Shown: in pieces, positions 61,472 through 64,000 of the stretch
Position numbering within the stretch: the stretch's first letter is position 1
How the letters are laid out: each line of letters opens with the position of its first letter
From: Sphingomonas sp. Root710
GTDB taxonomy: Bacteria > Pseudomonadota > Alphaproteobacteria > Sphingomonadales > Sphingomonadaceae
Assembly: GCF_001429065.1 (NCBI RefSeq)
Contig: NZ_LMIB01000001.1
Span: 939,933 to 1,003,932 of the forward strand
Reading direction: 5' to 3'
DNA length: 64,000 nt
Position numbers and translations under genes: made by a program
The notes under the pieces: model-generated
What the model saw: the letters and a program-made list of their open reading frames with translations, nothing else
What the model was told of the DNA's origin: nothing
The model's database searches: none

Positions 61472-63295
61472 TTAAGCGCCGCTGCCGGCCTGTTTGAGCG
61501 CTTTTTCCTCGATATGCTCGATCGCCTTGCCACGCGCGCGGTTGTTGCGGACCATCAGCGGCGCGAACGCCGTCATATGATAGTCGTGGCACATCGCGCA
61601 GGCCGACGGCACTTCCTTCTTGGCGTCCTGCCCGCCATGGCATTCCTGGCACTTGGCCAGCTTCGGCAGGCTGACATCCGACGCGAAGTGAGACTGCTTG
61701 ACTGCATGGCAGCTGCTGCAGCTCTCGGTGTCGTGTGCGGCGTGATCGAACCAGCCCTTCTTCATGTAACGGGTCGTCAGCGCCACCGGCTTGACCGCGA
61801 ACGGCACCGCAGCATTGCCGGTCGGCCGCACGACGTGACAGTCGAAGCAGGCCCCGCCCTTCGAGAAGACCGCGCGGATCGCCTGATCGGCGTTGCCGAT
61901 GTGCATCGCGCTCGTTTGCGCGAAGTCGATCCGCTGGCCCGAGGTCGCGAAGTCGCCCGGACGGCGGCGCTCCATGCCCTGGAACGCGGCGGTGCGCGGC
62001 GCGCCGGCGCGATAGAAGGCGCGGATATCCGCGACCACCTGGGCGGGTTCGCCGTGGCGCAGCGTGCGGACCGTTCCGCCGACCTGATCGAAGGCGAGCG
62101 AGTGACAGGCACCGCAGGCGGTTTCCATCTTCACCGCGGCGAAGCTGTTCCCCGTGGCGTCGCGGGTGTGGCAGTTTGCGCAGTCGAGCGGCGCTCCATA
62201 GCCTTCGCCCTTACCCAGCGTCTTCGCCATCTGCGCGACGCCATTGGTCGCCGACAGGTGGATGTCGTGCGGGAATTTCAACCCGTTGTCTTCCTTAGGG
62301 TTCGCATCGAGCGAGACCCGGCGGAACATCGGCGCGCCGTCCGCTCCGGCGAAACGGATCGTCGGTGCGAACTGCGGGTGCTTTTCGCCAAAGTCCGCGG
62401 TGTCCTTGAGCGCGGTATCGATCCGCTTGCTCATGTCGTTATGGCAATTGGTGCAGAAGCGCTCGTCGGTGACGGGCATCGCGGTCGTGCCCTGATGCTC
62501 GGTATGGCACTCGACGCAGCGGCCCGGCTGGATGCCGAAGAGCCCGCCGACAAACTGCTTGGTGCCGCCGACGATGCCCAGCGACCCTCGCGCCTCGGCG
62601 AGCTTCTTGGGGTCGGCATGGTCGTGGACCTTGGTGTGGCACGCGGCGCAGGCGGTGTCGCGGACCGCCTCGCCAGCCTTCACATGGCAGGCCTGGCAAT
62701 TATTCTCGAGGCTCTTGTGAACCTGCGACAGCTTTCCCGAGGTCCACATTTCATCCGCGTGGAAGGCGACCTTGCGGGTCGCGTCGGTCGGCTGGGTATG
62801 GATCGAGACCAGCGGCCAGATCAGGAAAATGGCGAGGATGATCAGCGCGAGCGCCCATGCAAGCGGGCGTTTGCCGGGCAAGGTGCTTGCAAGCGAGAAG
62901 ACGCGCGCCTCCTCCTTGTCCTCGGAGGCGTTGGAGATCGCACCGACGCGGGCGACGGTGATGACGACCTTGCCCTTTTCATCGCCCTCGCCGGGCTCGA
63001 AGGACAGGGCGTGGCTGCCGATGCGGACGTCGGCGCCCTGCGCCGCGCTGAAGCGTTCATGTTCGGATTGCTTGCCGTCGACCACGAAGGGCATGCCGGC
63101 GGTGGCGACCAGCTCGACATAGCCGCCCGGCGCGGTGCGGACGACGGCATGATTGAGCGCCGCCGCGAGGTCGGGAAGGTGAATGTCGCTCGACGGACTG
63201 CGGCCGATGCTAAGTTCGGCCTTGTCGAAGCTCTTGGGGCGGACGATGTCGCGCCCGTCGGCGGTGCGCGCTACCGTGCGAACGATGAAGCTCAT
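61472..63295 (-). CDS. FHA-domain, membrane-anchored decahaem c-type cytochrome
   Basis: This 607-residue protein has three parts. Residues 1-115 are an FHA domain (ELSIGRSPSSDIHLPD, LNHAVV, GADVRIGSHALSF), which would read phosphothreonine in the cytoplasm. Residues 146-165 form one membrane span (LAWALALIILAIFLIWPLV). Residues 180-580 lie in the periplasm and carry ten CxxCH haem-binding motifs, at C200, C216, C260, C281, C372, C394, C483, C526, C549 and C566. Extra His residues could be distal ligands. Together with the cytochrome-b-like gene 10 bases upstream this looks like an electron-transfer unit. I do not know a named system with this architecture. Confidence 0.9.
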   Translation of the reverse strand: MSFIVRTVARTADGRDIVRPKSFDKAELSIGRSPSSDIHLPDLAAALNHAVVRTAPGGYVELVATAGMPFVVDGKQSEHERFSAAQGADVRIGSHALSFEPGEGDEKGKVVITVARVGAISNASEDKEEARVFSLASTLPGKRPLAWALALIILAIFLIWPLVSIHTQPTDATRKVAFHADEMWTSGKLSQVHKSLENNCQACHVKAGEAVRDTACAACHTKVHDHADPKKLAEARGSLGIVGGTKQFVGGLFGIQPGRCVECHTEHQGTTAMPVTDERFCTNCHNDMSKRIDTALKDTADFGEKHPQFAPTIRFAGADGAPMFRRVSLDANPKEDNGLKFPHDIHLSATNGVAQMAKTLGKGEGYGAPLDCANCHTRDATGNSFAAVKMETACGACHSLAFDQVGGTVRTLRHGEPAQVVADIRAFYRAGAPRTAAFQGMERRRPGDFATSGQRIDFAQTSAMHIGNADQAIRAVFSKGGACFDCHVVRPTGNAAVPFAVKPVALTTRYMKKGWFDHAAHDTESCSSCHAVKQSHFASDVSLPKLAKCQECHGGQDAKKEVPSACAMCHDYHMTAFAPLMVRNNRARGKAIEHIEEKALKQAGSGA

Positions 63296-63305
63296 GTGCG
63301 CGTTC

Positions 63306-64000
63306 TCACCAGTAATAGAAGACGGCGACGATGTGGACGAACAGCGCCGCGATCAGCGCGAAGGTCAGCGGCACATGGATGTACAGCCAAACCTCGAGCA
63401 GCGCTTTGAGGCGCAGATGCTTGCGTATCCGCGACAGCGACGAACGCTTGCGCTCCAGCAGCACTTCGACATGATCGAGCGGATCGGCCTGTGCTTCGCC
63501 GCGCGACGGATGCGCGCGGACCGCGGCGAGCGCCGCGCGCGTGCCGCATTTGCCATAGCGGCCGGTCAGCCGTGCGATGATGCCGCCGCCGAACGGATCG
63601 TCGTGCAACGCCATCTGGACGATCGCGGCGCCCTCGGCGTCGAGCGGCTGCGCCGCCTCGTTGAGCTGACGGTCGAGCATCCGCAGATTGTCGAGCATCT
63701 GCAGCTGGGTGGTCTCACCCCGGTTGGCCGACAGCGCCTGGGGCAGCGAGGCATAGGCCGCGATCCCGAAAATGCCCGATGCAATCACAAGCATCATAAG
63801 GACATAGGCCAGGGTGTGAACATTCCATCCGAGGTCGAAACCCGTATGGAGGGTGGCGATCACGATCAGCGACAGGCCCAGATAGACATGCGCCGACGTC
63901 CAGCTCTTGAGCGACCAGCGGCCCGGCGTGATCTGGCGCTTGCGCACGCCCAGCATCGTCAGCCACAGGATCAGGCCCACCCCGATGGTGCCCGTGACAT
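63306..64000 (-). CDS. Polytopic cytochrome-b-like membrane protein (5' end outside window)
   Basis: This frame runs off the right window edge, so the N-terminus is missing; the GTG at 63980 is internal. At least four spans are visible: GLILWLTMLGV, HVYLGLSLIVIATLHTGF, LAYVLMMLVIASGIFGIAAY and LTFALIAALFVHIVAVFYYW. His in SAHVYLG, LHTGFDLG, HVPL and VHIVAVF could ligate b-type haem. A long hydrophilic loop (about residues 85-195) connects the spans. It ends 10 bases before the decahaem FHA cytochrome start and should be its membrane partner. A ferric-reductase or b561-like role is inference. Confidence 0.75.
   Translation of the reverse strand, partial: VTGTIGVGLILWLTMLGVRKRQITPGRWSLKSWTSAHVYLGLSLIVIATLHTGFDLGWNVHTLAYVLMMLVIASGIFGIAAYASLPQALSANRGETTQLQMLDNLRMLDRQLNEAAQPLDAEGAAIVQMALHDDPFGGGIIARLTGRYGKCGTRAALAAVRAHPSRGEAQADPLDHVEVLLERKRSSLSRIRKHLRLKALLEVWLYIHVPLTFALIAALFVHIVAVFYYW

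Follow-up and report, generated by a model that had tools for sequence, protein, structure and literature searches.

A conserved FHA-decahaem cytochrome of sphingomonads as candidate haem subunit of a trans-envelope electron conduit

An FHA-decahaem cytochrome in a conserved redox gene row

We analyzed a 64,000-nucleotide stretch of the genome of Sphingomonas sp. Root710 (contig NZ_LMIB01000001.1, positions 939,933 to 1,003,932; hereafter the window), near the end of which one gene encodes a 607-aa protein that joins an N-terminal forkhead-associated (FHA) domain, a single transmembrane (TM) helix and a region with ten CxxCH haem motifs. In transcription order it follows genes for a flavoprotein and a cytochrome b and precedes a CpdA/SpdA-like metallophosphoesterase gene (Table 1). 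We report that this FHA-decahaem protein is a genuine conserved family. The first-pass annotation, made from the letters alone, had read an FHA fold, one span and ten haem sites in a single protein, and the predicted model, profiles and sequence bear this out. We rejected the idea that the fusion is an annotation accident, since homologues are stop-free throughout and the cytochrome b gene ends 10 bases upstream of the FHA gene start.

The flavoprotein (838 aa, YpdA/thioredoxin-reductase-like) is encoded beyond the window edge and combines two cNMP_binding domains (4e-35), a Pyr_redox domain and a 4Fe-4S dicluster domain forming a ferredoxin-type tail. The cytochrome b gene overlaps the flavoprotein gene by one base, the metallophosphoesterase gene starts 127 bases past the end of the FHA gene, and the row is presumably co-transcribed. 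A scan of 6.7 kb, uninformative overall, returned two promoter-like sites against 1.0 in shuffles and a single terminator-like site (4.1 in shuffles), the latter located inside a gene and on the opposite strand.

The fused architecture recurs across genomes. In a sample of 196 genomes of the order Sphingomonadales, 43 match the protein and 39 do so strongly, the weak matches (G192, G069, G086 and G106) being left out of the 39. Among 398 genomes drawn from the phylum, 15 match the profile along almost all of its length, eight from the window's family and seven from outside the order (G553, G444, G345, G545, G228, G344 and, in two pieces, G196); the phylum listing reaches 127 genomes because the profile also catches FHA domains and haem segments of other proteins. 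From a named collection the best 80 of 471 relatives were kept, some of them cut by contig ends. In 78 of these loci the alignment begins at query residue 1-3; the remaining two start at contig ends. Their surroundings are highly conserved, with the flavoprotein found in 77 of the 80, the cytochrome b in 78, the phosphoesterase in 78 and a divergent tetratricopeptide repeat (TPR) gene in 67; recurrence beside the cytochrome b gene, a point raised in the first-pass annotation, is thus nearly complete. Two loci (L166:4850-8206 and L167:3052-6423) encode the flavoprotein and cytochrome b as a natural fusion of ~1120 aa, strong evidence that the two work together.

Table 1. Positions of the FHA-decahaem gene, its parts and associated genes (window coordinates unless a locus is named)
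Feature	Position	Strand	Remarks
FHA-decahaem cytochrome, whole gene, 607 aa	61472..63295	-	strong matches in 39/196 genomes of the order, own included
FHA-like domain, residues 1-116, predicted cytoplasmic	62948..63295	-	R32 and H49 kept; A46 and D73 replace Ser and Asn
Single TM helix, residues 145-163 (approx.)	62807..62863	-	R143 just before
Decahaem region, residues 200-570	61586..62698	-	ten CxxCH
Cytochrome b, 292 aa, 5 predicted TM	63306..64000	-	extends past the window to 64184; two WX3HX13H and SGxxG
Metallophosphoesterase, CpdA/SpdA-like, 289 aa	60475..61344	-	in 78/80 FHA loci
Own-genome outer row: LVIVD decahaem, 643-aa barrel candidate, HbpS-like lipoprotein, c554-like tetrahaem	L170:7652-17083		

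The TPR gene lies upstream of the row, just outside the window (L031:8761-9723), and is of a type linked to cytochrome c maturation (PF23914). It is possibly a dedicated maturation factor.

Conserved haem ligands and an atypical FHA domain

Conservation was read from two alignments. For A1, 35 homologues were chosen as open reading frames (ORFs) with 9-11 CxxCH, and 28 of them entered the alignment. For A2 we required 9-11 CxxCH, a GR-type FHA motif and fewer than 760 residues, a filter that 76 of the 80 loci passed; L056 and L059 (contig ends), L120 (FHA-type start, ten CxxCH) and L057 (ORF too long) did not. The 67 non-redundant loci were retained, and 58 of them were aligned with the window protein (59 rows).

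Outside its haem motifs the protein has ten histidines that are candidates for distal ligands (193, 226, 267, 306, 343, 346, 414, 518, 521 and 573), the first and last of them just beyond the ends of the decahaem region in Table 1. All ten are kept in 59/59 rows of A2, and in A1 nine are kept in 28/28 rows and His226 in 26/28. Ten conserved extra histidines are the count required for bis-histidine ligation of ten haems. The FHA cytochromes of L166 and L167 have nine CxxCH and one CX4CH. At the membrane, R143 is invariant in both alignments, and W147 is invariant in A1 and nearly so in A2. G31-R32 is invariant in A2, which is partly built in by the GR-type motif filter, and is also present in 35/35 and 28/28 members of the homologue sets assembled without that filter.

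An 11-strand FHA sandwich spanning residues 1-116 is borne out by the predicted model, by its structural matches, which are confined almost wholly to residues 1-109, and by profile matches, in keeping with the N-terminal FHA assignment of the first-pass annotation. PF16697, the YscD/CdsD-type FHA profile, is matched by 28/28 aligned rows at E<=0.1 (best 4.6e-8); the window protein scores 14.3 bits against a cut-off of 33.2, which L162 and L166 exceed. An NCBIfam search of the FHA-decahaem protein gave nine matches at E<=1, each under its cut-off.

The first-pass annotation had also suggested that serine/threonine phosphorylation might regulate, or be read out by, periplasmic electron transfer, an idea that our results do not support. 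The canonical phosphothreonine site of FHA domains (Arg, Ser, His and Asn) is incomplete in the window protein (Arg32, Ala46, His49, Asp73). Across the 59 rows of A2, Arg and His are kept in every row, Ser in 2 (Thr in 12) and Asn in 13; position 47, usually Arg in FHA domains, is P, L or A in 59/59 rows and never Arg. No Hanks-type kinase was matched by PF00069 or PF07714 in the window's genome (99.99% complete; the search covered these two profiles, not other kinase kinds), and the same searches score in 11/14 and 9/14 control genomes. PF00069 is likewise absent by profile search from 27 of the 39 sphingomonad carriers and matched in 12, and the operon genes scanned include no kinase. Together, the replaced site residues and the absence of PF00069 and PF07714 matches weaken phosphothreonine signaling as the main explanation. 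Beyond the order, PF00069 is matched in six of seven carriers (38 times in G345; G444 has none), and phosphothreonine may play a role in carriers with such matches.

The cyclic-nucleotide side of the row, in contrast, is intact. In the flavoproteins the cNMP motif Gly-Glu...Arg is kept in 95/95 rows in domain 1, and in domain 2 Gly and Arg are kept in 95/95 and Glu in 93/95; the phosphodiesterase metal motifs DxH, GD, GNHD, HH and GHxH are kept in 94/94 aligned rows (the reference is counted in both sets, as are some genomes more than once). The NCBIfam model for SpdA scores 147.8 bits against a cut-off of 400, so we do not name the phosphoesterase SpdA itself. The window's genome has two matches to the class III cyclase profile PF00211. 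From this contrast we derive a reading in which the FHA domain may dock the flavoprotein independently of phosphorylation, while a cyclic nucleotide may provide control; judged on these motifs, cyclic-nucleotide control is likely the better supported of the two modes of regulation.

A putative outer module co-occurs with the FHA-decahaem protein

Several relatives have, directly beyond the phosphoesterase, a large gene for a multihaem protein with LVIVD repeats. The window's genome encodes such a cytochrome (1366 aa, ten CxxCH) in a separate row, together with a barrel candidate, a c554-like tetrahaem cytochrome and an HbpS-like protein whose start, judged by eye, is of the lipoprotein type. 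When searched in the same 196 genomes, the LVIVD protein matches in 40 and strongly in 39 (G086 is the weak match), and these are the identical 39 genomes that carry the FHA protein; the other 157 have no strong match to either (Fisher p 5e-42, with kinship ignored). Among the matches listed, at least five genera hold both carriers and non-carriers, so the co-occurrence is not one inherited event.

The genes of the two halves are also often neighbors. The LVIVD gene flanks 31 of the 80 loci, the barrel candidate 26 and the HbpS-like gene 19. The pMSHV plasmid of Sphingobium herbicidovorans carries the two halves contiguously, within 16 kb, and in L165, from a distant proteobacterium outside the order (G545) and read ORF by ORF, the flavoprotein, cytochrome b, FHA-decahaem, HbpS-like, barrel-candidate and LVIVD genes are consecutive. 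Outside the order, the LVIVD protein is present in three of the seven carriers (G553, G444 and G545); in G345, which has no LVIVD match, the HbpS-like gene and the barrel candidate still adjoin the FHA row. The 643-aa barrel candidate ends in Phe in the window's genome, and all 19 relatives read end in Phe or Tyr; it is tied to the system by neighborhood and, via the LVIVD gene, by co-occurrence. No solved structure matched the LVIVD protein at E<=0.01. Its relatives in L038 and L047 weakly resemble ExtM, a protein of selenite/tellurite reduction operons, by way of a short stretch of haem sequence.

Relation to known systems

Five TM helices, two WX3HX13H motifs and SGxxG form the signature that has been described for the inner-membrane partners in two putative conduits, PCC3 and PCC4 (He et al., 2017; PMC5566968). 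Our cytochrome b has the same signature: two WX3HX13H motifs are found in it and in 22 of 24 other loci (23/25 in total), 21 of those 23 also having SGxxG, and L039 and L040 hold no 180-450 aa ORF with both cytochrome-b motifs. Further parallels to PCC3/PCC4 are a multihaem periplasmic cytochrome and an extra redox protein in the cluster; the barrel candidate of the associated module may correspond to their porin. There are also differences. The PCC3 periplasmic cytochrome has a median of 21 haems (PMC5566968), whereas the present one has ten, along with an FHA domain and a membrane anchor; the flavoprotein here has cyclic-nucleotide domains; and the outer module consists of an LVIVD decahaem, an HbpS-like lipoprotein and a c554-like tetrahaem cytochrome. 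He et al. also mention further multihaem cytochromes with such an inner-membrane partner, mostly porin-less, and some members of the FHA-decahaem family may stand in Supplementary Table 6 of that paper (PMC5566968). We regard the system as a variant of these putative trans-envelope cytochrome conduits; its interest lies more in the whole gene set than in the fused protein.

In another family of the order, the three loci L043-L045 also encode a flavoprotein together with a cytochrome b that bears these motifs. Their ORFs hold 21 and 10 haem motifs in L043 (the latter cut by a contig end) and 31 in one ORF in L045; the haem genes of L044 were missed by the simple gene caller. By their motifs, these clusters look PCC3-like.

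The first-pass annotation knew of no named system with this layout. We too found no name for it, although its description is not new to print: a decahaem "Forkhead-associated protein" is tabulated as cluster 403 of the Gallionellaceae (PMC10734462), with ten haem motifs and occurrence in 27 of 87 iron-oxidising genomes, and is listed without comment in Table 1 of that paper. The likeness lies in the FHA name and the number of haem motifs. FHA plus ten haems is therefore already in print, uncharacterised there as far as the accessible text goes. Among the matches listed from the openly accessible literature, nothing concerned the gene row, the cyclic-nucleotide flavoprotein or the LVIVD link, and the available text of PMC12442390 and PMC8788666 contains no FHA or forkhead term. 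PMC10734482 was set aside as a precedent, its FHA being the FhaB/FhaC haemagglutinin in the text available.

Three characterised families offer further comparisons. YscD and CdsD (CT664) of type III secretion have FHA-like cytoplasmic domains, but here the periplasmic part is a decahaem cytochrome and the conserved neighbors are redox genes, and we rejected membership of a secretion basal body on these grounds. The FHA proteins GarA and OdhI bind phosphothreonine and regulate 2-oxoglutarate metabolism under kinase control, unlike the window protein with its incomplete site and a genome free of PF00069/PF07714 matches. MtrA/MtoA of the DmsE family likewise have ten c-haems and a predicted periplasmic location, but TIGR03508 (MtrA/MtoA, DmsE) has no match in the FHA-decahaem protein at E<=1, and the present protein is membrane-anchored with a cytoplasmic domain.

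A putative two-membrane conduit with proposed cyclic-nucleotide control

Taken together, our findings suggest, with a probability of about 60%, that the protein is the inner-membrane and periplasmic haem subunit of a trans-envelope electron conduit, with its FHA domain as a dock and with cyclic-nucleotide control. Here, NAD(P)H would reduce the FAD of the cytoplasmic flavoprotein, and electrons would pass to the cytochrome b, of di-haem type, in the membrane and on to the ten periplasmic c-haems. The tetrahaem c554-like cytochrome may then carry them to the barrel and LVIVD-decahaem module, which would sit at the outer membrane; we infer this flow, its direction and its physiological partner. 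YscD/CdsD-type FHA domains are thought to dock without phosphothreonine in secretion systems, and the cytoplasmic FHA domain, placed beside the flavoprotein, may dock it in the same manner. Electron flow would be tuned by a cyclic nucleotide, presumably cAMP, which the flavoprotein would bind and the row's phosphodiesterase would remove. The complete picture of an NAD(P)H-driven, cyclic-nucleotide-gated conduit across two membranes, with a phospho-independent FHA dock and an outer module unlike those of characterised systems, is more tentative, and the odds lean somewhat against its holding in every part. We know of no characterised extracellular electron-transfer system with an outer module of this kind (LVIVD-propeller decahaem, barrel, HbpS-like lipoprotein and c554-like tetrahaem).

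Several observations weigh against a conduit. About 270 kb separates the two clusters in the window's genome, and of the seven carriers from other orders, four (G345, G228, G344 and G196) have no LVIVD match. The 643-aa candidate matched no Pfam profile and no solved structure (structures at E<=1), and its barrel periodicity test is weak, with 25 amphipathic stretches where shuffled sequences gave 19.5 ± 3.4. For the FHA-decahaem protein, the haem region is poorly modelled (whole-model mean predicted local distance difference test score 64.6, predicted template-modelling score 0.41). Finally, He et al. considered a role in extracellular transfer "less likely" for similar clusters that lack a porin (PMC5566968).

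Both modules might instead serve a specific periplasmic or cell-surface reaction, for instance one in which the LVIVD or HbpS-like proteins reduce a single compound, rather than general extracellular transfer. LVIVD, c554-like and HbpS-like domains are unfamiliar to us from metal-reducing conduits, and the weak ExtM likeness points the same way; the barrel candidate in the same row, with its consistent Phe/Tyr ending, and the sum of ten, ten and four haem motifs argue for a conduit instead, leaving this alternative rather doubtful. It is still less probable that phosphothreonine binding by the FHA domain lets a Ser/Thr kinase couple signaling to the periplasmic haem wire: the replaced Ser and Asn, the substitutions at position 47 and the kinase searches described above, with their limit to PF00069 and PF07714, make this the least plausible of the alternatives, and we consider it improbable.

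A conduit could also run inward, with outside electrons from metal, humic matter, an electrode or a partner cell reducing NAD(P)+ or feeding quinones via the cytochrome b. The PCC3/PCC4-type signature fits this direction, since He et al. propose quinone-linked flow from an outside donor (PMC5566968), as do the decahaem "Forkhead-associated" proteins tabulated in iron-oxidising Gallionellaceae (PMC10734462). The dedicated NAD(P)H-type 4Fe-4S flavoprotein, which in L166 and L167 forms one protein with the cytochrome b, suggests direct cytoplasmic coupling, however. NAD+ reduction is moreover uphill from most such donors without proton-motive drive, and the named carriers belong to the sphingomonads, which are not known as lithotrophs. 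On Fe(II), S. lithotrophicus ES-1 downregulated both PCC3 clusters (PMC8788666). We therefore consider inward flow unlikely and favor the outward, NAD(P)H-fed conduit.

Carriers, annotation and plasmids

Sphingomonads are widespread degraders in soil and water and are regarded as aerobic heterotrophs. If the conduit reading is correct, many of them (the 39 carriers among 196 genomes) would be able to move electrons to or from their surface under cyclic-nucleotide control. Routine annotation hides the system: in the RefSeq record of pMSHV its genes are named singly, for example as "cytochrome c3 family protein" or "hypothetical protein". Cultured carriers exist, Sphingobium herbicidovorans MH among them, and the conduit claim is directly testable.

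We also found the FHA cytochrome on 12 Sphingobium plasmid records, 11 of which are typed non-mobilizable. pMSHV (L187, NZ_CP020539.1), which bears both halves of the system, is a 959-kb plasmid typed conjugative.
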